Origin: Streptomyces spectabilis | GTDB taxonomy: Bacteria; Actinomycetota; Actinomycetes; Streptomycetales; Streptomycetaceae | NCBI RefSeq assembly: GCF_008704795.1 | Contig: NZ_CP023690.1 | Coordinates: 6,396,501-6,460,500, forward strand | Reading direction: 5' to 3' | DNA length: 64,000 nt | Shown: positions 3,966 through 24,199 of the stretch, piece by piece | Layout of the letters: every line of letters starts with the position of its first letter | Position numbering within the stretch: position 1 is the first letter of the stretch | Program-made: the position numbers and the translations under genes | The notes under the pieces: generated by a model | What the model was told of the DNA's origin: nothing | Database searches by the model: none | What the model saw: the letters and a program-made list of their open reading frames with translations, nothing else

Positions 3966-5387
3966 TCAGGGCTCCTCCCGGGGCGCCAGGGAGCGGTCCA
4001 CGAGAGCGGGCGCGGCGCCCACGTACCCGGCCGGATCGCACCAGCGGTCGAGGTCCGCGCGCGGGACGCGGCCGGCCAGGCCGGGGGCCTCGGCCAGGTG
4101 GTCGGCCAAGGGGCGGCCGTCCCGCCCCGCGGCGGCCGAGGCGGCCGTCAGGAGCTCTCGGGCGGCCGCCTTGCCCAGGAGCGGGGCGAGCTCCGCCACG
4201 AGCCGCTCGGCGACGACCTGGCCGCCGGTGAGGGCGAGGTTCGCGCGCATCCGCTCCGGGTGCACCACGAGGCCCTCCACGAGCTCCACCGCCGTGTGCG
4301 CGGCGCCGCCCGTCAGGCGCAGGCACTCGCGCAGCGGCTGCCACTCCGCGTGCCACGCCCCGGCCGAACGCTCGTCCTCGGCGAGCATGCACTGCGTCAG
4401 GACGGTGGCGAGCGCCGGGACCTGGAGCGCGGCACCGCGGATCAGCGTGGCGAGCACCGGGTTGCGCTTCTGCGGCATCGCCGAGGAGCTGCCGCGCCCG
4501 GGCACGTACGGCTCGCCGACCTCGCCGACCTCGGTGCGGCTCAGCGACTGCACGTCCACCGCCAGCTTGCCGAGGGCTCCGGCGGTGTGCGCGAGCGCGG
4601 CGCCCAGGTCGGCGATCGGCGTGCGCAGCGTGTGCCAGGGGAGCACCGGCGCCCGCAGGCCCGTCTCGGCGGCGAACGCCGTCACCAGGCGTTCGGTGTC
4701 GGCGCCGTACGCGGCGTACCCGGCGAGGGTGCCCGCCGCGCCGCCGAGGGAGACCGGCAGGGCCGCGTGCACGGCGGCGGCGCGGGCGTCCGCGTCGCGC
4801 ACCAGCTCCCGCCAGCCGGCGGCCTTGAGGCCGAAGGTGGTGGGCACCGCGTGGAGGGCCAGGGTGCGCCCGGCGACGACCGTGTCGCGGTGGGCGCGGG
4901 CGAGCCCCGCGAGGGCCCGCTCGACCCGCCCCAGGTCCGCCCGCAGCAGCCCCAGCGCGTCCCTGGCCACCAGCATCGCCGCGGTGTCGAGGACGTCCTG
5001 GCTCGTCGAGCCCCGGTGGACGTACGCGGCGGCGTCCGGGTCCGCCGCGGCCACCGCGTCGGTGAGCGCGCGCACCAGGCCGACCACGGGGTTGGCGCTC
5101 TCCCGCGCGTGCACCGCGAGCGCCCTCAGGTCGAGCCGGTCGGCCCGCGCGGCGGCGGTGATGGCCCGCGCGGCGCCGGGCGGCACGACGCCGAGCGCGG
5201 CCTGCGCGCGGGCGAGCGCGGCCTCGGTGTCCAGCATGGCCTGGAGCCAGGCGTGGTCGGACACCGCGCGCTCCACGGGGGTTCCGGCGCGCACGGGGGA
5301 GAGGAGCCCGGCGTCCAGGGTGTGCGGGTCGACGGCGGCGTCGTGCGGGTCGGCGGCGGCGTCGCCCGCGGCGAACGGCGCGTTCAT
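3966..5387 (-). CDS. CreD-like nitrosuccinate lyase (aspartase/fumarase superfamily)
   Basis: A 473-residue member of the aspartase/fumarase superfamily, closest in layout to 3-carboxy-cis,cis-muconate cycloisomerase (PcaB) and adenylosuccinate lyase. Near residue 275 it has the signature GRGSSSAMPQKRNP with the mobile-loop catalytic Ser, and earlier the HRGSTSQDVLDTA helix. Its ATG lies inside the stop region of the preceding flavoprotein gene (ATGA overlap), so the two are translationally coupled. In cremeomycin-type clusters this exact pair is CreE (aspartate to nitrosuccinate) and CreD (nitrosuccinate to fumarate plus nitrous acid). No beta-ketoadipate genes are nearby, which argues against a catabolic PcaB. 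Function is inferred from family and pairing. Confidence 0.75.
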   Translation of the reverse strand: MNAPFAAGDAAADPHDAAVDPHTLDAGLLSPVRAGTPVERAVSDHAWLQAMLDTEAALARAQAALGVVPPGAARAITAAARADRLDLRALAVHARESANPVVGLVRALTDAVAAADPDAAAYVHRGSTSQDVLDTAAMLVARDALGLLRADLGRVERALAGLARAHRDTVVAGRTLALHAVPTTFGLKAAGWRELVRDADARAAAVHAALPVSLGGAAGTLAGYAAYGADTERLVTAFAAETGLRAPVLPWHTLRTPIADLGAALAHTAGALGKLAVDVQSLSRTEVGEVGEPYVPGRGSSSAMPQKRNPVLATLIRGAALQVPALATVLTQCMLAEDERSAGAWHAEWQPLRECLRLTGGAAHTAVELVEGLVVHPERMRANLALTGGQVVAERLVAELAPLLGKAAARELLTAASAAAGRDGRPLADHLAEAPGLAGRVPRADLDRWCDPAGYVGAAPALVDRSLAPREEP

Positions 5388-7405
5388 ACGGCGACCTCGG
5401 TGTGCTCCTCGTCGGCCGTCGGCCCGGCCCACGGGGCGCTGGTGCCGAGGGCGAGCACGGCGCGCGCGATCGCGTCCGCGTCGGCGATCGTGACCGAGTC
5501 CACGCCGGGCCTGATGCCCGCCGCCGTCACCCAGTGCACCGCCTCGGTCGGCACCCCGTACGCGAAGCGCCTCGGGTGGGCCCTGCCGTGGGCGTCGAGG
5601 AGGCGGTACGGCCGTTCGGTCACCGCGAGGCCGCCGGTCTCGTAGGCGCCGCCGTCCGCCGTGGGGATGCGGTACGGGGCGCACGCCTCGGTGTTGAGCA
5701 GGTGCCGCAGCAGGGGGTCGGCCGTGCGCCGCAGGTCCGGCTCCGGGAGGCGGGCCTCGATGAGGACGCGGGCGCGCACGGTCGGGCCCGGCACCGCGTC
5801 GGAGTCGGCCACGAACGACCGGTCGCGGGTGTCGATCCTGATCCGGGTGTCGGGCCCGGTGAGTTCCAGGACGCCCGCCTCGATCAGGGCGGTCATCTCC
5901 TCGACGCGGCGCGGCGGCGGGCCGATCGACAGGAAGGCGTTGAGCGGTGTGTACCAGCGTTCCAGCTCGTCGCGGTGCGAGTCCCCGTCGAGGCCGCCCT
6001 GGTCGACCGCGAGCCGTACCTCGTTGCGCAGGTCGCGGAGCACGTCGAGGGCGGCCTTCAGCGGGCCGCTGACGTTGCCCTCGCGGGCCTGCCGGACGTC
6101 GTCGGCGAGGCGGGCGAGGAGCCAGGAGCGGAAGTCGTCGCGGCTGGTGAAGGAGCGCCGGCGGGCCGAGTCGGCGAGCGCGTCCCAGTCCCACCTGTCC
6201 GTCGCCGGGACGCCGTACGCGTCCAGGACCGCGGCGCACTCCGCGGGGCCCGCGCAGGCCAGGTAGCGCGCGGCGAACCCGTCGGGGCCGGGCGCGCGTC
6301 CGGCCGCGCCGTCCTCGCGGGCCAGCAGCGTCTCGTAGTAGACGGTCTCCACCTCGCGCGCGATGAGCGGCCACAGGTCCTTCGTGAAGGAAAGGCGGCC
6401 GGAGGCGTCACCGGAGCGCAGCCGGGCCACGCGTTCCGCCGTGAGCAGGCGCGGCAGATAGCGGCCGTGCGCGCCCTTCTCGTTCTCGCCGCGCGAGTGG
6501 AAGGGCACGCCGCGCCGCGAACTGGCGTACAGCCGGGGCTCCTTGCCGCTCGGCCGGTAGACGAGCCCGGCCGCGCCCCGGTCGAAGCGGCCGCCGCGGC
6601 CGAGGGTGAACAGCGCGAGGTAGTCGAAGAAGCACAGGCCCAGGCCGCGCAGCAGCACCGGCTCCGCCGCGGCGATGCCGTCCAGGTCGGCGTCCGCGGG
6701 GTTGGCGGGCGGCAGATAGGTGAGGTGGTTGATCCGCGACAGGCTCGCCGTGCGCTCCTCCCGCGCGGTGGGCCGGGTCGGCAGGTGGCCCTGCGCGAGG
6801 ACGACGGCGTCGAGGTGGTTGAGGCGGGTGCCGTTCGCGAGCCGGACGCCCTGCGGCCCGCCCGCGATGCCGTGGGTGTCGGCCATGGCGACCGCCCGCG
6901 AGCGGTGCACCCGGATCTCGACGTGCGCGGGCGCGTTCGCCAGGACGCGCCGGAAGCAGGCCGTGAAGTACTGCCCGCACAGCACCCGCGTGGGGTACGA
7001 GTTCGGCTCCAGGGACCGCACCTCGGCCAGCGTCGCCTCGTCGTACGCGGTCTCGTCGTACGCGGTGTCGTGGTACGCGGTCTCGCCGGGCGCGGTGTCG
7101 CCGTGCGAGGCCGCGAGCGCCGCGGCCCATTCGTACAGGCTCGGTCCCGGCTCGACCGGCCCCTCGATGCGGGACGCCGCGTCGGAGTAGACGGTGATCT
7201 GGGAGGCCACCGTGTTGGCGAGCAGGTGCCGTGACTGGCCGGTGCTCCACACCGCGCCGGAGCCCGGCGCGACCGGGTCGACGACGTGGACGAGGACCCG
7301 GGCGTGCGATGGTCGTGCGCGCTCGTTCGCGCACAGGCGTTCCAGCACGGCGAGCCCGCGCGGTCCCGTACCGATGAGGGCGATCTCGTGCGCGGTCGCG
7401 TTCAA
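5384..7405 (-). CDS. CreE-like flavin-dependent aspartate N-monooxygenase
   Basis: A 673-residue FAD/NAD(P)-binding protein. The Rossmann motif LIGTGPRGLAVLERL sits at residues 10-24, followed by the DPVAPGSGAVW stretch. Size and N-terminus match the flavoproteins CreE and FzmM, which oxidise the amino group of L-aspartate to nitrosuccinate. The start is TTG at 7405, chosen because GGAAGGGG lies 7 nt upstream. It overlaps the lyase gene by 4 nt. Together the pair should deliver nitrous acid in the cytosol for diazotisation or N-N bond formation. A TGACAGA word (7421-7427) sits next to the ribosome-binding site. An alternative is another amino-acid N-hydroxylase, but the coupled lyase favours the aspartate-nitrosuccinate route. 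Confidence 0.75.
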   Translation of the reverse strand: MNATAHEIALIGTGPRGLAVLERLCANERARPSHARVLVHVVDPVAPGSGAVWSTGQSRHLLANTVASQITVYSDAASRIEGPVEPGPSLYEWAAALAASHGDTAPGETAYHDTAYDETAYDEATLAEVRSLEPNSYPTRVLCGQYFTACFRRVLANAPAHVEIRVHRSRAVAMADTHGIAGGPQGVRLANGTRLNHLDAVVLAQGHLPTRPTAREERTASLSRINHLTYLPPANPADADLDGIAAAEPVLLRGLGLCFFDYLALFTLGRGGRFDRGAAGLVYRPSGKEPRLYASSRRGVPFHSRGENEKGAHGRYLPRLLTAERVARLRSGDASGRLSFTKDLWPLIAREVETVYYETLLAREDGAAGRAPGPDGFAARYLACAGPAECAAVLDAYGVPATDRWDWDALADSARRRSFTSRDDFRSWLLARLADDVRQAREGNVSGPLKAALDVLRDLRNEVRLAVDQGGLDGDSHRDELERWYTPLNAFLSIGPPPRRVEEMTALIEAGVLELTGPDTRIRIDTRDRSFVADSDAVPGPTVRARVLIEARLPEPDLRRTADPLLRHLLNTEACAPYRIPTADGGAYETGGLAVTERPYRLLDAHGRAHPRRFAYGVPTEAVHWVTAAGIRPGVDSVTIADADAIARAVLALGTSAPWAGPTADEEHTEVAV

Positions 7406-7596
7406 GCCGATTCCCCTTCCTGACAGAACTCGGTCCGATCCTGAGAGCGGCGGCGGAGGCCTCGCAACGGCGGCCGGGGCAGTCAGTCAGATGCGTCCGC
7501 GGGAAGGCCCCTTCCTGCCGCCGGAGTTGACACACTGTCTGCCGGTACGCCGGGAATCCGGCGCGGCCGCGGGATTCCCGGGGAAGAATGCCCCGC
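7406..7596. promoter_or_regulatory. Divergent promoter region (creE-like / MDR)
   Basis: A 191-bp region between divergent starts. It contains TGACAGA at 7421-7427 next to the left gene's ribosome-binding site, and a TTGACA box at 7527-7532. I see no clear -10 element at standard spacing from that box. Confidence 0.45.
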
Positions 7597-8574
7597 ATGC
7601 GTGCTGCGTACATCAGTGAATTCGGTCCGGCGCACTCCATCCGGTTCGGCGAGCTGCCCGAGCCGCGGCCGGGCGCGCACGACGTCCTGGTGGACGTCGA
7701 GGTGACGACGGCCAACCACGTGGACACCTTCATCCGGTCCGGCGCCGTGGACACGCCCGTGGAGTTCCCCTTCGTGGTCGGGCGCGACCTCGTCGGGCGG
7801 GTCGCCGCCGTCGGGGACGCGGTGACGGGCTTCGCGGTGGGGGAGCGGGTGTGGTGCAACAGCCTCGGCCACGGCGGGCGGCAGGGCGCCGCGGCCGAGC
7901 GGGCCCGGGTGCCCGCCGAGCGGCTCTACCGGCTGCCGGAGGGCGTCGACCCCGCCGCGGCGGTGACCGTGCTGCACCCGGGCGCGACCGCGTATCTGGG
8001 CCTGGTCACGCACGGCGGCCTGCGGGCGGGCGCGACCGTGGTGGTGATCGGCGCCGCGGGCAACGTGGGCGCCGCGATGGTGGTCGTCGCGGCCGCGGCG
8101 GGCGCCCGGGTGGTGGCCGTCGCCCACCCCCGCGACGAGGCGTACTGCCGCGGGCTCGGCGCCGACGCGGTGGTCGACCGCACGGCCGGCGACGTGACGG
8201 CCCGCCTGGCCCGCGCCTGCCCCGGCGGGGTCGACCTCTATCTGGACGCGGCCGGGATCAACGACCTGGCGGGCGCGGTCGGACTGCTCGCCTGGCGCGG
8301 CCGGATCGTGCTGCTCGCCGGGCTGCGCACCACGCCGACGCTGCCCGCGGGGGAGCTGTACGTCCGCGACGGCTCCGTCGTCGGCTTCGCCATCACCCGG
8401 GCCACCGTGGCCGAGCTCGCGGAGGCGGCCGAGCACGTCAACGGCCTCCTCGCCGACGGCAGGCTGCGGCCGCGGGAGCGGTTCACGCTGCCGCTGAGCG
8501 CCACCGCCGAGGCCCACCGGATGCTGGAGGCGGGCGAACTGCGGGGGATGAGGGTGGCGTTGAGCACGGAGTGA
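7597..8574 (+). CDS. Zinc-independent MDR / quinone oxidoreductase family protein
   Basis: A 325-residue medium-chain dehydrogenase/reductase of the zeta-crystallin (NADPH:quinone reductase) type. The N-terminal GroES-like fold includes EFPFVVGRDLVGRVAAVGD, then the Rossmann motif VVVIGAAGNVGAAMV near residue 152. The structural-zinc Cys cluster of alcohol dehydrogenases is absent, as expected for the quinone reductase branch. The second ATG (7597) is preferred because GGGAAG lies about 10 nt upstream; the first ATG at 7588 is too close. It is the only gene on this strand between two leftward operons. It may reduce a quinone or enone intermediate, or protect against one. Confidence 0.8.
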   Translation: MRAAYISEFGPAHSIRFGELPEPRPGAHDVLVDVEVTTANHVDTFIRSGAVDTPVEFPFVVGRDLVGRVAAVGDAVTGFAVGERVWCNSLGHGGRQGAAAERARVPAERLYRLPEGVDPAAAVTVLHPGATAYLGLVTHGGLRAGATVVVIGAAGNVGAAMVVVAAAAGARVVAVAHPRDEAYCRGLGADAVVDRTAGDVTARLARACPGGVDLYLDAAGINDLAGAVGLLAWRGRIVLLAGLRTTPTLPAGELYVRDGSVVGFAITRATVAELAEAAEHVNGLLADGRLRPRERFTLPLSATAEAHRMLEAGELRGMRVALSTE

Positions 8575-8641: not shown

Positions 8642-8655
8642 CGCACGAGTCCCGC

Positions 8656-10581
8656 TCACGACCCCACCAGGCTCCGCGCTCCTTGGAGTACGTCGGTCAG
8701 GAGCGTCCCCAGGATGCGGACGCCGTCGTGGGTGAGGACGGACTCGGCGTGGAACTGCACCCCGGCGAAGTGCGGGCCCCGCACGGCGTGCACCTCGCCG
8801 GTGGCGGCGTCCCGGCAGACCTCCACCGGACCGTTGCCCACCGGGTGCAGCAGGTCGGTGCCGCTGTGCGCCACGAAGCTGTTGTAGAACCCCACGCGTT
8901 CGCGGCGGCCGAAGAGGTCGAGGTCCTTCTGCACGCCCTGGTGCGGCCGGTCGCGGCGGCGCACGTCCAGGCCAAGGCGGTGACAGAGCACCTGGTGGCT
9001 CAGGCACACGGAGAGGAAGGGGCGGCGCCCGGCGAGCAGCCGGGCCGTCACGTCGTGCAGATGGGCCATCCGGGGTTCGTCCACCGCCAGCGGGTCGCCG
9101 GGACCGGGGCCCATGACGACCAGGTCGTGGCCGTCGGGGTCGTACGGCTCGTCGAAGCGGCGCACGGTCACCTCCAGGCCGGTCGACCGCAGTTGGTGGG
9201 CGATCATCGAGGTGAACGTGTCCTCGGCGTCGACGACCAGGACCCGCCTCCCGGCCAGGGCCGGGCGCCGTGCCGGGGGTTCCGGCCCGTCGCGCCAGAA
9301 GCGGGAGATGTCCGCGTTCCGCGCGAGCAGCGCGGAGCGCACCGACGGATGGTGGCCGAGGGGGCGCTGCGGCTCCGCCCGGAGCGCGCTCAGCAGGCCG
9401 AAGGCCTTCGCGTGTGTCTCGGCCACCTCGGCCGCGGGCAGCGAGTCGCGCACCAGCGTGGCGCCCACGGCGATCGACATCCGGCCCGACGCGTCGATGT
9501 CGGCCGTGCGGATGACGATCGACGAGTCCAGGGTGCGCCCGCCGTGACCGTCCCGGCCGATGAGCGCGACGACGCCGCTGTAGTAGCCGCGGCCCTGCGG
9601 CTCGTACCGGTTGATCACGCGGCTCGCGCTCTGCAGCGGGCTGCCCGTGACGGTCGGGGCGAACAGGGTGCCGCGCAGGATCTCCCGCACGTCGCGCCGG
9701 GTGGTGCCCTCGATGAAGTACTCGGTGTGCGCGAGGCGGGCCATCTCCTTGAGGAAGGGACCGACCACCCGCACGCCCGCGTCGCAGAACCGCGACATCA
9801 TCTTCAGCTCCTCGTCGACGACCATGAAGAGCTCGTACGTCTCCTTGCGGTCGTCCAGGAAGTCCATGACGCCGTCGAGGGTGGGGCCGCCCGCGGGGTA
9901 GCGGTAGGTGCCGCTGATCGGGTTCATGACGGCGGTGCCGTCGCGCAGGCTCACGTGCCGCTCGGGCGACGCCCCGACCAGGGTGCGCTCCCCGGTGTGC
10001 ACCAGGAACGTCCAGTACGCGCCCGACTCGTGGGCGAGCAGGCGGCGGAAGACCGCGGCGGCCGTGGCCGGGGTGTAGTCGGTGACATCGGCGACGAAGC
10101 GGCGCTTGATGACGAAGTTCGCGCCCTCGCCCGTGCTGATCTCGTCGGCGAGGACGCGGCGCACCAGGTCCGCGTACGCGTCGTCGTCGATGTCGAAGTG
10201 CTCGCCCGACAGCCGGATCGGTACGTCGGGGACGCGGTCGAGCAGCTCGGCCCGGCTCAGGCACGCCCGCTCGCGCACCGTCATGGCGAGCAGCGGACTG
10301 CCGTCGTCCGGTGCCGGGAAGCCGCGCTCGGCCAGCTGCCGGTAGGGCAGCAGCGCGAGTACGTCGGGCCCGGCGGGGCCTTGCGCCGACTCGGGGACCG
10401 GCAGATCGCCGACGCGGTCCACCGCGCGCACCGGCCCGGTGAGGAGCTCGACCTGGTCGACGCCGGTGGCCGTGGGGCGGTACAGGAGGGCGTACGGGGG
10501 CGGATCCGCCGTGAGCACGCGCCGCAGCAAGGCGTCGGCGTCGGCCGGGGCGGGCGGCGGCGCCGTCGGGTCCGCGCTCAT
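8656..10581 (-). CDS. phzE: PhzE-like 2-amino-2-desoxyisochorismate (ADIC) synthase
   Basis: A 641-residue fusion. Residues 1-420 form the chorismate-binding TrpE-like synthase part ([49 protein letters not shown]). Residues 440-640 form a class I glutamine amidotransferase with nucleophile Cys in [10 protein letters not shown] and the His-Glu pair in GVQFHAES. This order is that of PhzE rather than of two-subunit anthranilate synthase. It should aminate chorismate to ADIC without releasing pyruvate; the PhzD-type neighbour supports that over anthranilate. The start ATG overlaps the stop of the isochorismatase gene by 4 nt. It is the last gene of the coupled operon. Confidence 0.88.
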
Positions 10582-11258
10582 GCGACCGCCCCCGCGGCGG
10601 ACGCCTCGGCCGCTTCCGCGAGGAGCGTGCCGCCGTCGGACGGGAGGCCGCGGGTGGTGGCCACGACCGCGCAGCGGCGCGCGGCGTAGGTGAGCGCGAG
10701 CCGGTGCTCGGCGGCGGAGAAGTCGGCGGTCGCGTCGGCGACGAGGAAGGTCTCGATGTCGTGCGTGAAGGCCTCGACGGCGGTCGCGAGCACCCCGATG
10801 TGGGCGTAGACGCCGCAGACGAGGAGCTGGTCGCGGCCTGCGGCGCGCATCCGGTCCAGGAGGTCGGACCGGAAGAACGCGCTGTAGCGCCACTTGGTGA
10901 GCAGCCAGTCGTGCGGCCGCGGCGCCAGCTCGTCGGTGATGGCGCGGTCCTCGGGCGCCAGGCGCATGCCGGGGCCCCAGAAGTCGCGCAGCAGGCCGCG
11001 CTGTTCCTCGGTCATGCTGCCCGGCTGCGCCGTGTACGCCACGGGTATGCCGAGGCGGGCGCAGCCCTCGCGCAGCAGTCTCACGTTGCCGACGAGCTCG
11101 CGGCGGTGGGCGGCGGGATACGGCCGCAGGAAATAGCGCTGCATGTCGTGCACCAGCAGCACGGCACGGTCCGGACGCACCGTCCACCGCGCGGTGTTGG
11201 CCGGCAGGTCGTGCTCGCCGGGCATCGGGTAGGCGGCGATGTCGGGGATTCCGGGCAT
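10578..11258 (-). CDS. phzD: PhzD-like isochorismatase (ADIC hydrolase)
   Basis: A 226-residue isochorismatase-family hydrolase. It has the conserved Asp in [11 protein letters not shown] (about residue 38), the Lys in [14 protein letters not shown], and [13 protein letters not shown], where the cysteine nucleophile of amidase-type relatives is replaced, as in PhzD and EntB. It should cleave the enol-pyruvyl ether of ADIC to give trans-2,3-dihydro-3-hydroxyanthranilate and pyruvate. No aryl carrier domain follows, which distinguishes it from EntB. It lies 63 bp after the dehydrogenase gene and overlaps the ADIC synthase gene by ATGA. Confidence 0.9.
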
Positions 11259-11321: not shown

Positions 11322-12119
11322 TCAGGCGCCGAGCGCGGCACCCCCGTCGACCGTGAGCTCGTGCAGCGTCACGTGCCCGGCCTGCTCGGACAGCAGGAAG
11401 AGCACCGCCGCCGCCACGTCCTCGGGCCGGGCCGTCCTGCCCAGCGGAATGCCCACCCGGAAGTCCTCCGCGCTGCCGCCGAGCGTGCGCGCGCGGCCCT
11501 CGTCGTCGTGCCACATCGACCACAGCATCGGCGTCTCGGTCGAGCCGGGGGCCACGACGTTGCAGCGGATGCCGTACCGGGCCACCTCCAGGCCGAGGGA
11601 CTTGGTGAACATGGTGGCGGCCGCCTTGGACGCGGCGTACGCGGCCATCTTCGCCCGGGGCGTCGACGCGGCGTTCGACGCCACCGTCACGAGGGCGCCC
11701 CGGCCGCGCGGCACCATCCGGTCCACCACGGCGCGGGAGGTGTGGAAGACCCCGCTCGCGTTGACCGCGAACATGTCCGCCCAGTCCTGCCCCGACAGCT
11801 CCCTGACCTCGCCGACGCGCAGCGTCCCGGCCGCGTTGACCAGGTACTCCACCGGGCCGAGCCCGGACTCGACCGCCGCGACGAGCGCCTCGACGCCCGC
11901 GGCGTCGGTGACGTCCGCCGGGTACGCCGTCACCGGCAGGCCCTGGCGGGCCAGTTCGGCCACGCGTTTGCGCAGCGCGTCGCCGTCGCGGTCGACCGCC
12001 GCCACGCGGGTGCCCCGCTCGGCGAGCGCGCGCACCACGGCCCGGCCGATGCCGCCCGCGGCGCCGGTGACGAGGGCGACCTTGTCCTGCCAGGCCGTGC
12101 TGGTGTCCGTCGCGGTCAC
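11322..12119 (-). CDS. SDR dehydrogenase, DHHA to 3-hydroxyanthranilate (DhbA/EntA-like)
   Basis: A 265-residue classical short-chain dehydrogenase: TGAAGGIG cofactor loop near residue 19, NAAG at about 95, catalytic Ser in VTVASNAAS, YAASK tetrad near 160, and C-terminal HELTVDGGAALGA. It resembles 2,3-dihydro-2,3-dihydroxybenzoate dehydrogenase (EntA). With ADIC synthase and a PhzD-type hydrolase alongside, the likely reaction is NAD-dependent oxidation of dihydro-3-hydroxyanthranilate to 3-hydroxyanthranilic acid, which diverts the pathway from phenazines. The GTG start overlaps the DAHP synthase stop (GTGA). Confidence 0.85.
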   Translation of the reverse strand: MTATDTSTAWQDKVALVTGAAGGIGRAVVRALAERGTRVAAVDRDGDALRKRVAELARQGLPVTAYPADVTDAAGVEALVAAVESGLGPVEYLVNAAGTLRVGEVRELSGQDWADMFAVNASGVFHTSRAVVDRMVPRGRGALVTVASNAASTPRAKMAAYAASKAAATMFTKSLGLEVARYGIRCNVVAPGSTETPMLWSMWHDDEGRARTLGGSAEDFRVGIPLGRTARPEDVAAAVLFLLSEQAGHVTLHELTVDGGAALGA

Positions 12120-16686: not shown

Positions 16687-16907
16687 GGGAAATCCCTCCC
16701 GATGGGTCGGCGCCGGTCGCTGAGCCGGTCGGACAGCGGCGCGGCGCGGATATCCCCTGCATCATGCAACTCACCGAAAAGGCACGGCCAAGCCCGCTCG
16801 CACAATCTGTCAGGTCCACCCGCGGGCCGTTCCCCGCCGCGTGCGGAGGTGACAGACATCCCCGCCGAGCGCTGACCCGCGGCATTTCCCGGTGCTGTAC
16901 TCGACGC
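16687..16907. promoter_or_regulatory. Divergent promoter with inverted TCTGTCA / TGACAGA words
   Basis: TCTGTCA lies at 16806-16812 and TGACAGA at 16850-16856. The latter ends 51 nt before the rightward ATG, almost the same spacing as at the esterase promoter (50 nt). The same pair of words in the same orientation recurs at 13495-13532. Confidence 0.55.
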
Positions 16908-17303
16908 ATGTCAGACATACGAAACGGCAGCAGCCTGCCCGTCGATCCGGCCGACCTTCCCTATGTCTTCGCCGACGCCTTCAACGGGCGGAACCTCGAA
17001 CTCCTTCAGCGTCTCTTCGAGCCGGAGGCCCTGCACGTCGTGCGGCCCGGCGAGATCTCGGCGGGCGCCAAGCGGCGGGCCGTCCTGCCGACGGTGGTGC
17101 GCGACCGCGTCCCCATCACCGTCAAGCTGCGCCAGGTCTACGTGGTGGGGGACACCGCCCTGCTGATCAACGACTACGTCCACGACGGCACCGGGCCCGA
17201 CGGCGCGCACGTGCACATCGAGGGAACGGCGACGGACGTTGCGCGCCGGGACGCGGACGGGCACTGGCGGTACCTCATCTCCAACCCGTCCGGCACGGCG
17301 TGA
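16908..17303 (+). CDS. SnoaL/NTF2-like (DUF4440-type) small protein
   Basis: A 131-residue protein with the NTF2-like cone-fold pattern: an N-terminal helix (LPYVFADAFNGRNLELLQRLFEPEA) followed by beta-strands with LRQVYVVGDTALLINDY and a C-terminal HWRYLISNPSG. Members include polyketide cyclases, isomerases and proteins without catalysis. In the cluster it could help a cyclisation or isomerisation; no active-site residues can be assigned. The ATG is the first Met of the fold. It is divergent from the WrbA-like gene. Confidence 0.75.
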   Translation: MSDIRNGSSLPVDPADLPYVFADAFNGRNLELLQRLFEPEALHVVRPGEISAGAKRRAVLPTVVRDRVPITVKLRQVYVVGDTALLINDYVHDGTGPDGAHVHIEGTATDVARRDADGHWRYLISNPSGTA

Positions 17304-17393: not shown

Positions 17394-18194
17394 CTACTCG
17401 AACGACATGGGCACGGCGGGCCCGCCGGACGCCTTCACGGGCAGCCGGTCCAGCTTGATCCCGAACCACTTGGCGTAGGCCTCGCGGACCTCCTGCTCGT
17501 CGGCGAGGCGCCGGCTCTCCTTCCCGTCCCCGGTGAGGACGGTGAGGCGGTCCTCCTTCAGCGTGACCCGGCCGTCGTCGGTCGGCAGCGAGCAGAACAG
17601 GTTCTGCAGGAACGGCGAGTCCGGCGCGGTGCGGTACCACCACAGCGTGGGCCCGAAGTCGCTGAGCCGGCACGGCACGTCGTAGACGCGGTACTGGAGC
17701 GCGTCGTTCGTCCGTACGTCGATGCCGCCGTCGTCGGCGGCCGTCACCTGGAAGCGGCCGTTCGGGTCGTCCTGGGGCTCCTCCGTGCCCAGGGACAGCG
17801 GGTACCTGCTGTTGCGGCCGAAGCCGACGTCGACGAGCCAGCTGTGCCCGTCGATGCGGACCTTGAGCGCCAGGTGGTGCAGGGGAGCGGTCAGTTCGCC
17901 CTTGATCCACACCCGGCCCGGAAGGAGGGACACGTCGTACCCGAGGCCTTCGAGGAGGAACGAGAGCGCGGGATTGACCTCGTAACAGCCGCCGCCACGG
18001 CGTTCGTTGACGATTTTGTCGACCACCCGCTCATCCATGTGGATCTCCTCGGCCAGGTGGTAGCCGAGGTTTTCGAAGGGTACGGCGTACAAATGCGCCG
18101 CCTGTATCGCGCGCAGCGACGCGAGGTCGGGCTTCGCGGGCCGGGGCGCGGAAATGCGGTCCAGATACGCGGCAATCGTGGCTTCGGTGAGCAA
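17394..18194 (-). CDS. nat: Arylamine N-acetyltransferase (NAT)
   Basis: A 266-residue NAT with the full catalytic triad: Cys in RRGGGCYEVN (about residue 68), His in APLHHLALKV and Asp in LVDVGFGRN. It transfers acetyl or a larger acyl group from CoA to an aromatic amine. 3-HAA or a derivative is the obvious candidate here; NAT homologues also act in ansamycin release, but no such PKS is present. The TTG start at 18194 has a perfect AGGAGG 9 nt upstream and gives the usual family N-terminus, which is better than in-frame starts further upstream. It begins one base after the amidohydrolase stop, so the two form an operon. Confidence 0.88.
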   Translation of the reverse strand: MLTEATIAAYLDRISAPRPAKPDLASLRAIQAAHLYAVPFENLGYHLAEEIHMDERVVDKIVNERRGGGCYEVNPALSFLLEGLGYDVSLLPGRVWIKGELTAPLHHLALKVRIDGHSWLVDVGFGRNSRYPLSLGTEEPQDDPNGRFQVTAADDGGIDVRTNDALQYRVYDVPCRLSDFGPTLWWYRTAPDSPFLQNLFCSLPTDDGRVTLKEDRLTVLTGDGKESRRLADEQEVREAYAKWFGIKLDRLPVKASGGPAVPMSFE

Positions 18195-18195
18195 G

Positions 18196-19233
18196 CTAAC
18201 GGCCCTCCTGCTGGTCGTCGGCGAATCGGGGAAAGAGGTCAAGGGCGTTCCGGAATTCGACACGGTCCAGGTCGCCCGCCGAGAATCCGCCGTGGTCGAC
18301 GACGAAGCGACCGCCCGCGGTGCTGTACGACTCCGGCATGAAAGGGAAGTCCGAGCCGACGAGCAGCCGGTCCGCCCCGGTGAACGAGCGCACCGAGGCG
18401 AACGCGTGCGGCTCCCCGATCATGGCGGTGTCGCTGTACAGGCGCCCCAGATAGGCGAGGGGATCGGCGGGCAGCCGCTCGGCGAGGTCGGCGCGGATCA
18501 GCGGCCCGCAGGCGAGCCGGGCCGCGTAGTACGCGACGCCGCCCCCGCCGTGCGACAGGATCACGCGCAGCCCCGGATGCCGGTCCAGCGTGCCGTTGTA
18601 CAGCAGCTGGGAGGCGAGGCGGACGGTTTCGAACGGGAACTCGCAGAGCGACACCGGCAGGCCGAACGTCGGCTGGTCCACCGGCGGCGTCGTGGGGTGC
18701 ACGAACAGCGGTGTGCCCCGGCGCGCGGCCTCGGCGTGGAAGGCGTCGAGCGCGGGATCCCCCACGTACACGCCGCCGTAGTGGGTCACCAGGCCGACGC
18801 CGTCGAGGCCCAGGACGTCCGTGCTGTACGCCAGTTCCTCCAGGGCCGCGTCCACGTGCGGCAGCGGGAGCACGGCGAACGCGCCGAGCCTGCCCGGGTG
18901 TTCGGCGACGAGACCCGCCAGGTACTCGTTCACCCGGCGGGCGAACTTGGCCCCCGTGGCGGCGTCGACGGGCGGCACGCCCGGCCAGACGTTCACCACC
19001 GCGGCCCGGATGCCCTGCCGGTCCATCATCGCGAGGCTGGACCCGACCCGCCACGCGGGTTTGTCGACGCCGGGCAGCGTGGACGCGAACCCGAGTTCAC
19101 GGAGTTCGGCCGCGTAGAATTCCGGGATGATGTGGTGATGCACGTCGATGGCGCGGGACCAGGGCGGACCGGTCGCCTCGGAATGGGGCGCCGAATGCGG
19201 CGCGGCTTCGCTGGGCACCTTGCTTGTCGCCAT
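18196..19233 (-). CDS. Amidohydrolase-2 family (ACMSD-like) decarboxylase or benzoxazole cyclase
   Basis: A 345-residue metal-dependent hydrolase of the ACMSD/gamma-resorcylate decarboxylase family. Metal ligands are visible: HHH in IDVHHHIIPEF, His in TPLFVHPTTPP, His in VILSHGGGG and Asp in VGSDFPFMP. Known members decarboxylate aminocarboxymuconate semialdehyde or salicylates. In A33853- and nataxazole-type clusters an amidohydrolase of this superfamily closes the benzoxazole ring. Its presence with an AMP ligase and KASIII favours that role, though decarboxylation of 3-HAA or a derivative to an aminophenol is a real alternative. The ATG at 19233 has GAGGGG 5 nt upstream. First gene of an operon with NAT. 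Confidence 0.82.
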   Translation of the reverse strand: MATSKVPSEAAPHSAPHSEATGPPWSRAIDVHHHIIPEFYAAELRELGFASTLPGVDKPAWRVGSSLAMMDRQGIRAAVVNVWPGVPPVDAATGAKFARRVNEYLAGLVAEHPGRLGAFAVLPLPHVDAALEELAYSTDVLGLDGVGLVTHYGGVYVGDPALDAFHAEAARRGTPLFVHPTTPPVDQPTFGLPVSLCEFPFETVRLASQLLYNGTLDRHPGLRVILSHGGGGVAYYAARLACGPLIRADLAERLPADPLAYLGRLYSDTAMIGEPHAFASVRSFTGADRLLVGSDFPFMPESYSTAGGRFVVDHGGFSAGDLDRVEFRNALDLFPRFADDQQEGR

Positions 19234-19509
19234 GAATACCCCTCGTCCGGGCGGCACGGAACTTCGGTATCCACGCTACGTATTCCCCGCATGAGCGTCG
19301 ACGTACTGACGGGAAAGTCTGTCAACTTCTGCCGGGCGCCGCGGCATTGACGCGGGGCGCGCGGCGGCGCCGAATCTGACACTTATCGCGGCATTCTCTG
19401 GGGGCCCGGGCGCGCGCCCGGTTATGTTCCGACGCGGAACTGTCGTACTGGACGCCGCGCGGGCCCCGCCCCGAGCCGCCCGCTCGGCCACGACACGAAA
19501 AGAGTCACC
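19234..19509. promoter_or_regulatory. Divergent promoter with TCTGTCA and TCTGACA words
   Basis: GAAAGTCTGTCA ends at 19324 and matches 12 nt of the word at 13490-13501. A variant, TCTGACA, lies at 19375-19381. The region should drive the amidohydrolase-NAT operon leftward and the ketosynthase operon rightward. Confidence 0.5.
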
Positions 19510-20529
19510 ATGGCCAGTCGCGCAGCAGCGGTCCCCGACACGGACGCGATCGGAATACTCGGCACCGGCTCCTGCCTCCCCGGCAACGTCGTCACCAACG
19601 ACGAGGTGGGAGCGCGGGCCGGGGTGACGGACGAGTGGATCACCCGCAAGACCGCGATCCGCGAGCGCCGCTGGGCGAAACCGGACGAGGCCACGTCGGA
19701 CCTCGCGGCGACGGCCGCGCGCAGGGCGCTGACCGGCGCGGGGGTGCGCGCCGACGACGTCGGCCTCGTCGTCGTGGCGACGTCCACGCCGGACTCGCCG
19801 CAGCCCCCCACCGCCACGGCGGTCGCCACCGAGATCGGCGTGCCCTCCGGCACGCCCGCCTTCGACGTCAACGCGGTGTGCAGCGGCTTCGTCTTCGCCC
19901 TGACCGCGGCGGAGCGCATGATCCGCGGCACCGGGCGGCACGCCGTCGTCATCGGCGCCGACATCTACTCCCGCACCCTCGACCCCACCGACCACCGCAC
20001 CGTGGTGCTCTTCGGCGACGGCGCGGGCGCGGTGGTCATCGGGCCGACCGCGGGGCGCGGCGTGCTCGCCACCCGCCTCGCCACCTTCCCCGAGGAGCGG
20101 GAGCTGATCCGGGTCCCGGCGGGCGGCTCCGTGATCCCCGCCTCCGCGGCCTCCGTGGAGCAGGGCCTGCACTACTTCACGATGGACGGGCCCGCCGTGC
20201 GCCGCTTCGTGACGGACCGGGTCGGCCCGCTGATCCGGACGTTCCTCGACGACCAGCTGCCGGGCGACGGGCGCCGCCCGCACTTCGTGCCGCACCAGGC
20301 CAACGGCCGCATGATCGAAGCGCTCGCCGCCGACCTGGGATTCGCACCTGAACACACCCACACCACCGTGCGCCTGTACGGCAACACCGGAGCGGCGTCC
20401 ATACCGATCACCCTGGACCGGGCGGCGCACCGCCTCGCCCCCGGCGACCTGGTGCTGCTCGCCGGGTTCGGCGGCGGGATGGCGGCGGGCCTCGCCCTGG
20501 TCGAATGGCAGCCGACCGAAGGGACCTGA
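19510..20529 (+). CDS. 3-oxoacyl-ACP synthase III (KASIII/FabH) family protein
   Basis: A 339-residue thiolase-fold ketosynthase III with an intact triad: Cys in FDVNAVCSGFVF (about residue 122), His in FVPHQANGRM and Asn in YGNTGAASIP. No ACP, FabD or other fatty-acid/PKS gene accompanies it, so it probably works on CoA or carrier-free substrates. KASIII homologues in A33853-type benzoxazole clusters form amide or ester bonds rather than C-C bonds. Paired with the downstream AMP ligase, it may transfer an activated aroyl group onto the amine or hydroxyl of a second 3-HAA unit. It starts a rightward operon with the SRPBCC, ligase and hydroxylase genes. Confidence 0.88.
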   Translation: MASRAAAVPDTDAIGILGTGSCLPGNVVTNDEVGARAGVTDEWITRKTAIRERRWAKPDEATSDLAATAARRALTGAGVRADDVGLVVVATSTPDSPQPPTATAVATEIGVPSGTPAFDVNAVCSGFVFALTAAERMIRGTGRHAVVIGADIYSRTLDPTDHRTVVLFGDGAGAVVIGPTAGRGVLATRLATFPEERELIRVPAGGSVIPASAASVEQGLHYFTMDGPAVRRFVTDRVGPLIRTFLDDQLPGDGRRPHFVPHQANGRMIEALAADLGFAPEHTHTTVRLYGNTGAASIPITLDRAAHRLAPGDLVLLAGFGGGMAAGLALVEWQPTEGT

Positions 20530-20586: not shown

Positions 20587-21153
20587 ATGAGCGCATCAGA
20601 AGGAATGTCCCGGACCGCTACCCGTGAAAGCGCGCCCCTCTTCGAGATCGGCGTCGAAATCCCTGTGGCCCGCCCGCCGGAGAATGTCTTCGCCGTGGTG
20701 AGCGATCTGCCGCGCAGCCGCCAGTGGAGCGAGGAGTGCACCGGCGGCGAATGGATCCACGGCGAGCCCGGCACCGTGGGCTCGGTCTTCCGCGGCCACA
20801 ACCACCGGCGCGCCGATGTCGTCGAGTGGGCCCCGGTCGTCCGCGGCACCTGGACCACCACGGCCCAGGTCGTGGCGGCCGAACCGCCGCGGCGCTTCTC
20901 CTGGGCCATGCGGACCCAGGACGGCCGGGTGCAGGACAGCGTGTGGAGCTTCCTCCTGAGCCCCGCCGACGGCGGCGGCACCACGCTGACCCACCACTTC
21001 CGCATGGGCGCCCCCACCGAGGGCATCCAGGCCATCACGGCCGGGATGGACGACGACGAGAAGAAGAGGTTCTTCACCGAGTGGGGAGCCAAGGTCCGCA
21101 CGGATATGGCCGCGACCCTCGGCCGATTGAAGAAGGTCATCGAATCCGAGTGA
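20587..21153 (+). CDS. SRPBCC (START/Bet v1-like) family protein
   Basis: A 188-residue protein with the helix-grip pattern of SRPBCC proteins: IGVEIPVARPPENVFAVVSDLPRSRQW at the N-terminus, a central strand series (GTVGSVFRGHNHRR, WTTTAQVVAAEPPRRFSW) and a long C-terminal helix (MAATLGRLKKVIES). Family members are hydrophobic-ligand binders, aromatase/cyclases or binding proteins. It is 57 bp downstream of the ketosynthase gene in the same operon and could bind or cyclise its product. No catalytic residues can be assigned. Confidence 0.8.
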   Translation: MSASEGMSRTATRESAPLFEIGVEIPVARPPENVFAVVSDLPRSRQWSEECTGGEWIHGEPGTVGSVFRGHNHRRADVVEWAPVVRGTWTTTAQVVAAEPPRRFSWAMRTQDGRVQDSVWSFLLSPADGGGTTLTHHFRMGAPTEGIQAITAGMDDDEKKRFFTEWGAKVRTDMAATLGRLKKVIESE

Positions 21154-21158
21154 ACCCC

Positions 21159-21235
21159 TGTCCGGAAAGGCTCCCGCCCGGAAGGGCAGCTGTCCGGAAC
21201 CCCTTTGTCCGGAAGCCCTTTGTCCGGAAAGACCG
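21159..21235. repeat. TGTCCGGAA repeats, three in a 15-bp tandem
   Basis: TGTCCGGAA occurs at 21159, 21191, 21206 and 21221, the last three at exact 15-bp spacing. The block fills the gap between the SRPBCC and AMP-ligase genes. It may be a short intergenic repeat or an RNA structural element. Confidence 0.7.
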
Positions 21236-21260
21236 CTGAACGACGAACAGAGGCTGACGC

Positions 21261-22883
21261 ATGCTTCTCCAGCGCATAGGAAACCGCGGCATCAGGCTGG
21301 GCACCCTCTTCGACCGGGCCGCCGCCAAGTACCCCACGAACGTCCTGCTCCTCGACCACGACCTGGACATCGCGCCGGAGCGGGGCCGCAGCCTGACCAT
21401 GACGGACGTCGCCGACCTCGTGAGCGACCTCGGCTCCCGGCTGTGGCGCGCGGGGCTCCGCCCCGGTGACCATCTAGTAGTTCACAAGAGCAACGCCTTC
21501 GACATCACCCTGCTCGCCGTCGCGGCCGCCCGGATCGGGGCCGTCCCGGTGCTCCTGTCACCGCAGCTTGACGGCGACACCGTCGTCGCGCTGCTCCGCC
21601 GGGTCGAACGCCCCTACCTGCTCACCGACGCCGCGAAGCTGACCACGACGCTGCCCGAAGCCGTCTTCGCGCTCAGCCACCGCGTGCTGCTCGCCTCCGG
21701 CACCCACGGGCGCGCCACCTCCCTGGCCGAGCTGGCGGGCGCCCCGCGCATCCCCGCCCTGGAGCTGCCGCCCGACCACCGCACCCTGGTCACGCACACC
21801 TCCGGCACCACAGGACTGCCCAAGCTGGCCGTCCACACCGCCTTCAGCCTCCAGGCGCGCTACCGGCCGCAGGCCCTGGCGACGGCCCTGATGCGGCGCC
21901 GCGAACCCGTGGCCATCCACGTGTCGTTCGTGCACTCGCGCCTGTTCACCGCCCTGGCCATCTCCCTGCTCCGCGGCTTCCCCGTGGCGATCCTCGCGGA
22001 CTCCGAACCGGGGCGCGTCGCGGAGCTGTTCGCCCGGCTGCGCCCCGCCGTCCTGGAGGCCCACCCGAACACGTATCTGCGCTGGGAGGAGCTCGCCGCC
22101 GACGACCTCGGCCCGCTGTCCAACGTCAAGCTCTTCAGCAGCACCTTCGACGCCCTGCACCCGCGGACCGTGCGCACCCTCATCGGGGCGTCGCGGCGCC
22201 GCTCCCCGCGCTTCGGCCAGATCTACGGCCAGAGCGAGGTCGGCCCGAGCGTCGCCCGCTCGTACGGCAAGCACCGCTCGCCCGACGCCGACGGGCGCTG
22301 CGTGGGCATCCCCTTCCCGGGCATGACCGGCGTACGGGTGGTCAGCCGCGACGGGAAGCGGCCGACGTCGTCGTCGCCGGGCTACATCGAGATCAGCAGC
22401 GACGGCCGCATCCGTACCTACCTCGGCGAGGACGAGCGGTTCAGCCGGCAGGCGGACGAACGCTGGTGGCGCATGGGCGACTTGGGCTACCGCACCCGCT
22501 GGGGCTGTCTGCACCTGATGGACCGCGAGGTGGACGAGATCCCCGGCTTCGGCAGCACCCTGTCGGTGGAGGACCGGCTGTTCTCCCGGATCGGGGAGCT
22601 GGCCGAGGTGGTGATCATCCCGACGGAGGACGGCGCGCCCCTGCCGGTGGTGTGCACCAAGGACGACCGGCCGCTCGACCTCGCCGCGTGGCGCGAGGCG
22701 ACCGCAGGCCTGCCGGAGATGGCCGCGCCGCTGCAGTGGCGCCGGGCGGACCTGCCGCAGACCGCCACCACCAAGATCAAGCGCCTGGAGCTGGCCGGAC
22801 TCGTCCGCGCGGGCGGCCCCCCGGCCCCGGCCCCGGCCCCGGGCGCGACAGCGGCCGCCGACCGGGTCGGTGATCCGGTATGA
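21261..22883 (+). CDS. AMP-forming acyl/aryl-CoA ligase family enzyme (BomJ-like or CreM-like)
   Basis: A 540-residue ANL-superfamily enzyme: A3 loop HTSGTTGLPKLAVHT (about residue 177), A5 QIYGQSEVGP (about 323), A7 RMGDLGYRTRWG, A8 hinge DREVDEIPGFG and an A10 Lys in TATTKIKRLEL (about 512). It should adenylate a carboxylate. Two precedents fit the context: activation of 3-HAA for condensation, as in benzoxazole clusters, and diazotisation of an o-aminophenol with nitrite by CreM of the cremeomycin pathway, which is also in this superfamily. The nitrous-acid genes in this cluster keep the second option open. The stop overlaps the hydroxylase ATG (ATGA). Confidence 0.85.
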   Translation: MLLQRIGNRGIRLGTLFDRAAAKYPTNVLLLDHDLDIAPERGRSLTMTDVADLVSDLGSRLWRAGLRPGDHLVVHKSNAFDITLLAVAAARIGAVPVLLSPQLDGDTVVALLRRVERPYLLTDAAKLTTTLPEAVFALSHRVLLASGTHGRATSLAELAGAPRIPALELPPDHRTLVTHTSGTTGLPKLAVHTAFSLQARYRPQALATALMRRREPVAIHVSFVHSRLFTALAISLLRGFPVAILADSEPGRVAELFARLRPAVLEAHPNTYLRWEELAADDLGPLSNVKLFSSTFDALHPRTVRTLIGASRRRSPRFGQIYGQSEVGPSVARSYGKHRSPDADGRCVGIPFPGMTGVRVVSRDGKRPTSSSPGYIEISSDGRIRTYLGEDERFSRQADERWWRMGDLGYRTRWGCLHLMDREVDEIPGFGSTLSVEDRLFSRIGELAEVVIIPTEDGAPLPVVCTKDDRPLDLAAWREATAGLPEMAAPLQWRRADLPQTATTKIKRLELAGLVRAGGPPAPAPAPGATAAADRVGDPV

Positions 22884-24199
22884 CGACCGTCGTCGTGGCC
22901 GGTGGCGGCATCGGCGGGCTCGCCACCGCGCTCAGCGTCTCGGCCCACGGGCACCGCGTCGTGGTGTGCGAGCGCGGCGAGGAGTTCGCCGAACTCGGCG
23001 CGGGCATCCAGCTGGCCCCCAACGGCATGCACGCCCTGGACCGGCTCGGCCTCGCCGGGACCGTCGGCCGGATCGCGGTCCCCGTCGAGGAGCTGCGCTT
23101 CATGGACGGCGTCACGGGCGACCACGTCGTCAGCATGCCCCTCGGCGAGGAATACCGCCGCCGCTTCCGCAACGCCTACGTGGTCGTGCACCGCGGCGAG
23201 CTCTACCGCACCCTGCTGCGGGCGTGCCAGGACAGCGACCTGATCGAACTGCGGGCCTCGTGCCCGGTCGTCGGCTACGAACACGGCGGGGACGAGGACG
23301 CGCCGGGCGTGCGGGTGCTGCTCGGCCAGGGGCGGGTGCTCACCGCGGACGCCCTCGTGGGCGCCGACGGGCTGCACTCCGCGGTGCGGGCGAAGGTCGT
23401 CGGCGACGGCGCGCCGCGCAACGCGGGCATCACCGTGTACCGGTCGATCGTGCCCATGGAGCGCGTGCCGGAGGACCTGCGGCACCGGTCGGTGTCGTGG
23501 TGGACGGGCCCCGGCCGGCACTTCGTGCACTATCCGATCGCGGGCGGCCGCTACCTCAACCTGGCGCCCAGCGTGGAGAACCGGCCCTCCGAGACCTTCT
23601 CCGGCCTGCCGGTCCCTGCCGCCGACGTCCGCGCGCAGTTCGCGGTCCTCTGCGACACCGCCAGGCGCCTGCTCGCACTCGGCACGGACTGGAAGGCCTG
23701 GGTGCTCGTCGACCGGGAGCCCGTGCGCGAGTGGACCGACGGCCGGGTCGCCCTGCTCGGCGACGCCGCGCACCCGATGCTGCACTACGCGGCGCAGGGC
23801 GCGTGCATGGCCCTGGAGGACGCGGTGGTCATCGGCGAGCTCCTCAACTGCCCGCCCCGGCAATTCGGCGCGCGGCTGCGGCAGTACAACGCCTCGCGCC
23901 GGGAGCGCACCGCGCGGGTGCACCGCCTCGCCCGCGACAGCATCCGCCTGTGGCACGCGCGCGACGCCGACGCCCGCGCCCGCAACGAGACCCTGGCCGC
24001 CATGTCGGCGACCGATCTGTACGACTACGTGGCGTGGCTGCACGGAGCCCGGGACTTCGCGCCGCCCTCGGGCTCGGCCGAGGGCACGTACACCCTGGCC
24101 GGATACCTCGGCCCGGCCGACTCCGGGGGCGCCGCCGACGACCCGGCCGCGCCCCACACCCTCGGCGGCTCCCTCGAACTGCCCGAGCAGCAGCGCTAG
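22880..24199 (+). CDS. FAD-dependent aromatic hydroxylase (salicylate/3-hydroxybenzoate hydroxylase-like)
   Basis: A 439-residue class A flavoprotein monooxygenase: GxGxxG in VAGGGIGGLATAL at the N-terminus, the DG motif in LVGADGLHSAVR (about residue 160) and the GD motif in VALLGDAAHPMLHYAAQGA (about 295). It is closest in pattern to salicylate, 3-hydroxybenzoate 6- and 6-hydroxynicotinate hydroxylases, which insert one oxygen next to a phenol or replace a carboxylate oxidatively. The likely substrate is 3-HAA or the assembled product. It is translationally coupled to the AMP ligase. Confidence 0.87.
   Translation: MTTVVVAGGGIGGLATALSVSAHGHRVVVCERGEEFAELGAGIQLAPNGMHALDRLGLAGTVGRIAVPVEELRFMDGVTGDHVVSMPLGEEYRRRFRNAYVVVHRGELYRTLLRACQDSDLIELRASCPVVGYEHGGDEDAPGVRVLLGQGRVLTADALVGADGLHSAVRAKVVGDGAPRNAGITVYRSIVPMERVPEDLRHRSVSWWTGPGRHFVHYPIAGGRYLNLAPSVENRPSETFSGLPVPAADVRAQFAVLCDTARRLLALGTDWKAWVLVDREPVREWTDGRVALLGDAAHPMLHYAAQGACMALEDAVVIGELLNCPPRQFGARLRQYNASRRERTARVHRLARDSIRLWHARDADARARNETLAAMSATDLYDYVAWLHGARDFAPPSGSAEGTYTLAGYLGPADSGGAADDPAAPHTLGGSLELPEQQR

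Follow-up and report, generated by a model that had tools for sequence, protein, structure and literature searches.

A Streptomyces spectabilis gene cluster that pairs predicted 3-hydroxyanthranilate and nitrous-acid supplies with an AMP-forming ligase from a clade next to the AvaA6-type diazotases

We examined a 64,000-nucleotide stretch (positions 6,396,501–6,460,500, hereafter the window) of the 9.8 Mb chromosome of Streptomyces spectabilis, which carries genes for a 3-hydroxyanthranilate (3-HAA) supply, a CreD/CreE pair for a nitrous-acid supply and an AMP-forming ligase. Genes were called by GC-frame, and families were assigned by scans (Pfam, NCBIfam) over 30 frames between 0.8 and 34 kb. 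The specialised-metabolism genes form a compact block from about 1.6 to 32.1 kb (Table 1). A first-pass annotation had proposed a single cluster with both supplies and an AMP-forming ligase at 3966..24199; all of these parts are indeed open frames and its gene coordinates are correct, but the boundary it drew is too narrow. Streptomyces sp. NRRL B-1347 has an orthologous cluster, likewise uncharacterised, with identical gene content and order and aligned blocks of 85–96% nucleotide identity that run from the transposase-like gene through argS into the core genome; it differs left of position 1584, where no block of more than 300 bases matches. Because the genes up to that for the TetR regulator (32078) are retained in NRRL B-1347, and because other orthologous clusters contain homologues of the NAD(P)-binding protein NADb10 and of TetR, we place the right end at about 32078, before argS (at ~32.7 kb), and not at 24199. 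The gene set is more than a chance assembly, since it recurs in other genomes and is syntenic in NRRL B-1347.

Both precursor routes are predicted from family evidence. CreD clears a curated equivalog NCBIfam model. The NCBIfam scan gave no match for CreE, which scores 626 bits against the solved L-aspartate N-hydroxylase 8cp2. For the latter, Arg409, Arg412, Asn413 and Arg416 have been described (PMC10404684), and the motif RDLRNEVR in the CreE translation has the same spacing. CreE is thus a predicted aspartate N-monooxygenase, and together CreE and CreD would convert aspartate to nitrous acid. All four genes of the 3-HAA route lie together on the minus strand, encoding a class II 3-deoxy-D-arabino-heptulosonate 7-phosphate (DAHP) synthase, PhzE, PhzD and a DhbA-like short-chain dehydrogenase/reductase (SDR), which would lead from chorismate to 3-HAA. 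This route has been described for the same gene set in the penzonemycin (PMC9323291) and caboxamycin (PMC5481532) clusters. At ~44–66 kb, the chromosome of the strain also carries a second CreD (62%), a second CreE (57–59%), a 45% ligase, a DAHP synthase and an anthranilate-synthase-like gene. This second CreD/CreE locus could complement a loss of the creE gene in the window.

The pairing of the two supplies has a precedent. In 2022, Liu et al. reported the isolation of penzonemycins A and B, which they putatively assigned to the cluster pzm of Streptomyces sp. SCSIO 40020 (ON345781; PMC9323291). In their description, pzm6–9 account for 3-HAA, pzm10 is a transposase gene, pzm11/12 encode CreD/CreE homologues, pzm13 a quinone reductase, pzm18 a CreM homologue (48% identical to CreM), pzm19 an SRPBCC protein and pzm21 a VOC protein (PMC9323291). 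The first-pass annotation knew of no described cluster with such a combination. Because pzm, in which 3-HAA genes, CreD/CreE, a CreM homologue, a quinone reductase and an SRPBCC protein are joined, had already been published, novelty of the pairing must be rejected. The window contains the penzonemycin-type core (3-HAA operon, CreD/CreE, quinone reductase, SRPBCC) and, like pzm, a VOC protein, a major facilitator superfamily (MFS) exporter, an AMP-binding ligase and a transposase gene. According to the published gene description, only pzm encodes an acetolactate synthase, an F420-dependent oxidoreductase, a second acyl-CoA ligase and a 171-aa N-acetyltransferase, whereas the window, unlike pzm, encodes a KASIII enzyme, an acyltransferase of the arylamine N-acyltransferase (NAT) family, a decarboxylase resembling 2-amino-3-carboxymuconate-6-semialdehyde decarboxylase (ACMSD), an FAD hydroxylase, WrbA and 2-oxoglutarate (2OG)-Fe oxygenases. 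The acetolactate synthase and the F420-dependent oxidoreductase, the proposed source of the coupling partner in pzm, were absent among the 30 frames scanned. By eye, no acetolactate synthase was seen near CreE among the matches listed from 68 genomes, a sample in which pzm itself was not located.

The penzonemycins, which are aryl hydrazones, bear an acyl group on the nitrogen of 3-HAA, and their N-N unit sits at C-4 (PMC9323291). The expectation that the o-aminophenol nitrogen of 3-HAA becomes diazotised is therefore not borne out by the nearest known product. The diazo-forming role of Pzm18 was termed putative in a 2024 review (PMC11705231), and hydrazone formation by Japp-Klingemann coupling has been proposed for penzonemycins and reported for tasikamides (PMC9323291, PMC11705231). 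While the pairing is known, the literature that we found contains no characterisation of the present gene set, of its product or of the unusual ligase. What appears to be new, judged from the sequence, is a ligase clade sister to the AvaA6 type, a KASIII/NAT/ACMSD-like sub-family that extends to Micromonospora chalcea, and a resident transposase-like gene.

We next consider the ligase. The cremeomycin, avenalumic acid and p-coumaric acid clusters share with the window a CreE/CreD pathway and an ATP-using class I adenylate-forming enzyme (CreM, AvaA6 and CmaA6), but their amine derives from 3-amino-4-hydroxybenzoic acid (3,4-AHBA), unlike the 3-HAA of the window. On the AvaA6 diazotase model, the ligase reaches only 69.3 bits against a cut-off of 975 and thus falls outside the AvaA6 type. 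Among solved structures it matches 9xb8 best (89 bits), an entry that carries the name of a FadD fatty-acid-CoA ligase; an AvaA6-type protein scores 322 bits against the same structure and still higher against 8ztz and 8tf7/9bq0. The tree that we built comprises 20 window-clade members (22 picked from 38 extracted, two dropped because the trimming motif was missing), 20 hits of the AvaA6 model and, from the genome of the window, 13 further ligases (of 20 stretches fetched, 7 had no usable frame); CreM and Pzm18 were not part of it. The window clade and the AvaA6-type clade group together against the 13 own-genome ligases with support of 100/99, while the two clades stay separate. The ligase clade thus appears to be sister to the AvaA6-type diazotases, which makes the enzyme a candidate diazotase only. 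In its own genome, no match to the AvaA6 model was found at E<=1e-60 among the 6 of 131 candidates scored.

The two ligase clades also keep different company. Five AvaA6-clade loci with CreE (12–13 kb each) gave no match for SRPBCC, for the quinone reductase of the medium-chain dehydrogenase/reductase (MDR) type or for PhzE; the window-clade ligase, by contrast, is nearly always found near an SRPBCC gene (34 of 35 loci). A by-eye inspection of 67 genomes placed 3,4-AHBA synthase genes within ~26 kb of an AvaA6-clade ligase and CreE in four of them (G115, G180, G046, G179), but none within 100 kb of a window-clade ligase among the members listed. Because of this difference in gene neighbourhood, we suggest that CreM may belong with the AvaA6 side. 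The motif glutamate reported as E352 for CreM (PMC11705231) was compared in position with the clades and does not decide between them. The adjacency of Pzm18 and Pzm19 (SRPBCC) points the other way for Pzm18, which may belong with the clade of the window.

To see how often the pairing occurs, 392 genomes drawn evenly from the genus were searched. Of these, 285 hold CreE-like proteins (E<=1e-60) and 67 hold ligase matches (E<=1e-150). Among 8000 candidate proteins scored, 1351 match the ligase at E<=1e-80. Neighbourhoods of up to 35 kb, within the fetched sequence and on some short contigs, were examined at 35 ligase loci. These come from 39 listed rows with at least ~59% identity, after exclusion of the window itself, one mirror copy in genome G108 and two loci of G289. 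CreE was near the ligase in 27 loci, CreD in 26, PhzE in 27, the MDR protein in 30, the transposase-like gene in 24, the FAD hydroxylase in 16 and the carboxylesterase in 9. CreE and PhzE were both present in 22 loci from 21 genomes, which makes the 3-HAA/nitrous-acid pairing a recurring theme. Five loci had CreE without PhzE (three of them on contigs below 15 kb), five had PhzE without CreE, and three had neither.

We could also observe natural variants. In the strain MP131-18, the cluster with KASIII, NAT and decarboxylase retains the 3-HAA genes, the FAD hydroxylase and SRPBCC, but the stretches read showed no CreD, CreE, MDR protein or ligase. Instead, a locus about 4.7 Mb from this cluster combines CreE and CreD with a further 3-HAA operon and a 64% ligase. 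The genome with the G301 cluster, discussed below, likewise has another CreD/CreE/PhzE/ligase locus. Both variants fit a ligase/nitrous-acid unit that may act in trans. Such variants, lacking CreDE or CreDE plus the ligase, could show which parts belong together.

From the gene families, conserved residues, synteny, recurrence and tree position we infer the following reactions and their order. The ligase would diazotise an aromatic amine derived from 3-HAA in an ATP-dependent reaction, with the SRPBCC protein and the quinone reductases as helpers. The ring could be edited by the FAD hydroxylase (hydroxylation) and perhaps by the ACMSD-like enzyme (decarboxylation), NAT would N-acylate the arylamine, and KASIII would provide a beta-keto or other acyl unit. 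The choice of nitrogen for diazotisation and the nature of the final product are deduced in the same way. An N-N-bonded product, as foreseen in the first-pass annotation, would still be the best guess from the combination of 3-HAA, nitrous acid and an ATP-using ligase; a quinone diazide or a benzotriazole-like compound is possible. By analogy with the proposal for penzonemycins, the diazonium might be captured by an enolisable partner made by KASIII to give an aryl hydrazone, an end product that we put forward only tentatively.

We favour diazotisation because of the CreD/CreE assignments, the 3-HAA operon, the tree (100/99), the recurrence of CreE with PhzE, the lack of an AvaA6-model match in the own genome, the joint absence of CreD, CreE and the ligase from the MP131-18 cluster and the pzm precedent. 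As a whole, we consider this model somewhat better than an even bet. Several observations weigh against it. The ligase is only 23–28% (about 26%) identical to AvaA6-type proteins; with this identity, the low model score and its place in a sister clade, an assignment as CreM is not supported. It sits on a long branch, and the tree program issued long-branch warnings. KASIII (12 of 35 loci), NAT (13) and the decarboxylase (4) are not general partners of the ligase. Four genomes (G356, G239, G009, G069) combine the ligase with SRPBCC, MDR and 3-HAA genes but show no CreE match in the vicinity, a partial CreD match remaining in G069, and the whole genomes G356 and G069 yield only distant CreE-like matches (E about 1e-84). 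The G301 cluster also retains the ligase without a local CreD/CreE. Our confidence in diazotisation stays moderate because these four genomes lack a nearby CreE, with only distant matches in G356 and G069. In G301, the PhzE match at ~10.3–11.1 kb covers 30% of the protein and immediately precedes the FAD hydroxylase, and CreD/CreE are missing, which looks like a deletion.

The loci without CreE lead to a different explanation, in which a carboxylate (that of 3-HAA or of a partner acid), and not nitrite, would be the substrate activated as an adenylate by the ligase. KASIII would then condense an acyl unit as PqsD does, towards a quinolone or cinnoline, or form an amide or ester like BomK, while nitrous acid would act elsewhere or non-enzymatically. 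The ligase and SRPBCC do accompany 3-HAA genes in 5 of the 35 loci without a CreE match near, BomK-type KASIII enzymes are known from 3-HAA-type clusters, and KASIII scores 134.6 bits against 3h76, an enzyme of the Pseudomonas quinolone signal (PQS) pathway, though FabH chains score higher. However, the position of the ligase next to the AvaA6-type clade, the nearby CreE in 27 of 35 loci and the joint loss of ligase and CreDE from the MP131-18 cluster argue for a link with nitrous acid, and we regard carboxylate adenylation as unlikely.

Few enzymes are known to make N-N bonds from nitrite. If the window clade diazotises, it would represent a separate family, rich in sequenced members and associated with partner proteins of its own. 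It would then also mark a widespread group of clusters, for which we found a product report only for the related pzm. In a bolder version, the clade would be a second, unrecognised family of ATP-dependent diazotases for 3-HAA derivatives with an SRPBCC partner, and, in the sub-family with KASIII, NAT and decarboxylase, KASIII and NAT would together turn 3-HAA into a beta-ketoacyl anilide that traps the diazonium, either within the molecule (cinnoline-like ring) or between molecules (azo or hydrazone pigment). No description of such a chemotype was found in searchable open-licence PMC papers; this version is speculative, and we give it a small chance.

Table 1. Genes of the cluster, with position in the window, strand and basis of assignment
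Gene product	Position	Strand	Basis
DDE_5/IS701-type transposase-like protein without the presumed catalytic Asp pair; resident cluster gene	1584..3128	-	Pfam DDE_5, motif comparison
CreD, nitrosuccinate lyase	3966..5378	-	NF052556, 728.5 bits (cut-off 650)
CreE, predicted aspartate N-monooxygenase	5384..7405	-	8cp2; RDLRNEVR
MDR-type quinone reductase	7588..8574	+	ADH_N/ADH_zinc_N
PhzE-like 2-amino-2-deoxyisochorismate (ADIC) synthase	8656..10587	-	683 bits to 3r74, residues 20-636 of 643
PhzD-like isochorismatase	10578..11258	-	PF00857
DhbA-like SDR, presumed last step to 3-HAA	11322..12119	-	TIGR04316, 340 bits (cut-off 300)
Class II DAHP synthase	12116..13330	-	PF01474, 408 bits; NCBIfam 391 bits, below cut-off 614.7
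Type B carboxylesterase	13532..15184	+	PF00135
Two-domain VOC/glyoxalase-like protein	15244..16005	-	Family scan
WrbA-like FMN quinone reductase	16018..16686	-	Family scans
SnoaL/DUF4440-like protein	16764..17303	+	Family scan
NAT	17394..18263	-	PF00797, alignment
ACMSD-like amidohydrolase-family decarboxylase	18196..19257	-	PF04909; closest solved relatives ACMSD; alignment
KASIII	19510..20529	+	Family scans, alignment
SRPBCC protein	20587..21153	+	PF10604
AMP-forming ligase, candidate diazotase, clade sister to AvaA6 type	21261..22883	+	PF00501, tree
FAD hydroxylase, 3-hydroxybenzoate 6-hydroxylase/salicylate hydroxylase-like	22880..24199	+	Family scans; 408 bits (cut-off 459)
NsdA-family regulator	24339..25376	-	NF053720, 138 bits (cut-off 75)
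NAD(P)-binding Rossmann protein (NADb10), flavin-reductase-like	25596..26324	-	PF13460
Methyltransferase; start uncertain, overlaps neighbouring frame	26378..27403	-	PF13649
2OG-Fe(II) oxygenase 1	27184..28188	-	Family scan
2OG-Fe(II) oxygenase 2	28497..29498	-	Family scan
MFS exporter	29565..31076	-	PF07690
TetR regulator, right end of the cluster	31314..32078	+	Family scan; homologues beside KASIII in orthologous clusters

The genes for KASIII, NAT and the ACMSD-like decarboxylase define a sub-family of these clusters. A profile of four decarboxylases, run against named genomes, found six loci: NRRL B-1347, Streptomyces sp. F001, yr375, MP131-18, S. aurantiacus ISP-5412 and Micromonospora chalcea DSM 43026. 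In all six, the 10 kb around the decarboxylase contain homologues of KASIII, NAT, WrbA, SnoaL and NADb10, and in five they also contain TetR, the TetR gene of NRRL B-1347 being on the adjoining stretch. Among the 392 genomes, 60 have decarboxylase matches (E<=1e-50), but apart from the window only G196, G062, G301 and G032 reach at least 60% identity. These same four carry a second KASIII (30–33% identity) and two NATs, and in four others (G321, G071, G134, G272) KASIII and NAT come after PhzE in the same orientation. This arrangement suggests acyl transfer onto an arylamine. Alignments showed that KASIII retains Cys124, His262 and Asn292, NAT retains Cys93, His130 and Asp145, and the decarboxylase retains His40/His42, His187, His236 and Asp303, residues that we take to be catalytic. 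No cluster with this KASIII/NAT/ACMSD-like set was seen described in the open-licence PMC papers and passages that our searches brought up.

These accessory genes bear on a resemblance to the caboxamycin and nataxazole clusters, which share with the window the 3-HAA operon, KASIII, a ligase and an enzyme of the amidohydrolase superfamily (PMC5481532). The cluster might thus be of the benzoxazole type, with the nitrous-acid genes as passengers, since these genes co-occur much as they do in cbx (PMC5481532). However, the amidohydrolase-family protein of the window is ACMSD-like by its closest solved relatives, and no carrier protein was found in the 30 frames scanned (smaller frames lay outside the scan), whereas cbxD, which encodes an acyl carrier protein, is essential for caboxamycin (PMC5481532). 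For these two reasons the benzoxazole assignment is disfavoured (PMC7204872, PMC5481532, PMC5867642). A paulomycin-like ring A derived from the 3-HAA pathway (PMC4425429) was a further reading considered. The presence of CreD and CreE sets the window apart as well, and their recurrence with the ligase, in 26 and 27 of the 35 loci, does not suit passenger genes. We hold this assignment to be extremely unlikely.

The NAD(P)-binding proteins and quinone reductases of the cluster would be compatible with a deamination that depends on diazotisation, as in the avenalumic and p-coumaric acid pathways, where ava and cma provide the precedent (PMC10777205). N2 would be replaced by hydride, and the product would carry no N-N bond. 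As presumed AvaA7 we took the Rossmann-type frame downstream of AvaA6-type genes in two loci (L131, L140), assigned from the published gene order; neither frame had a blastp match at E<=1e-3 among 27 window proteins. Deamination by an AvaA7 homologue was therefore rejected, and deamination in general appears improbable.

The quinone reductases that recur beside the ligase could also point to a role of the nitrous-acid enzymes in oxidation, from an o-aminophenol to an o-quinoneimine, again without an N-N bond. In the crexazone cluster, deletion of crxD or crxE abolished compounds that lack such a bond (PMC11429834). However, 3,4-AHBA is the building block in that cluster, its authors still allow for a diazo intermediate (PMC11429834), and penzonemycins keep their N-N bond (PMC9323291). 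We judge a purely oxidative role to be highly improbable, and diazotisation remains our preferred reading.

One of the resident genes of the cluster encodes a transposase-like protein. An Asp-Asp pair (xDDxxxPKxG), presumably catalytic, is present in three distant IS-like homologues (L262, L263, L264), while none of 30 rows of cluster-resident proteins has Asp at either position of the pair. In this set, one locus that was read twice has Glu at the second position, and three loci were entered twice. Among 20 further homologues, 17 lack the pair, three of these on contigs of the same clusters. Eight genomes (G062, G032, G301, G272, G356, G219, G233 and M. chalcea, G394) show no match at E<=1e-20 other than the cluster copy among the candidates scored (37 of 44 in G301). 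The family is not restricted to these clusters, as homologues occur in 9 of 10 control genomes with a best identity of 44%. The inverted repeats listed around the gene are only short, imperfect pairs. The gene looks domesticated, possibly as a regulator. A transposase is likewise annotated in the penzonemycin cluster as pzm10 (PMC9323291).

Two further points concern the remaining genes. The two-domain VOC protein scores 151 bits (cut-off 250) on the model of the AfsK-binding protein KbpA; because of this score, it may be regulatory and not catalytic. The two adjacent 2OG-Fe(II) oxygenases were not found in the other clusters of the family that we compared. They cross-match each other's homologues in NRRL B-1347 with 61–72% identity and apparently arose by tandem duplication.

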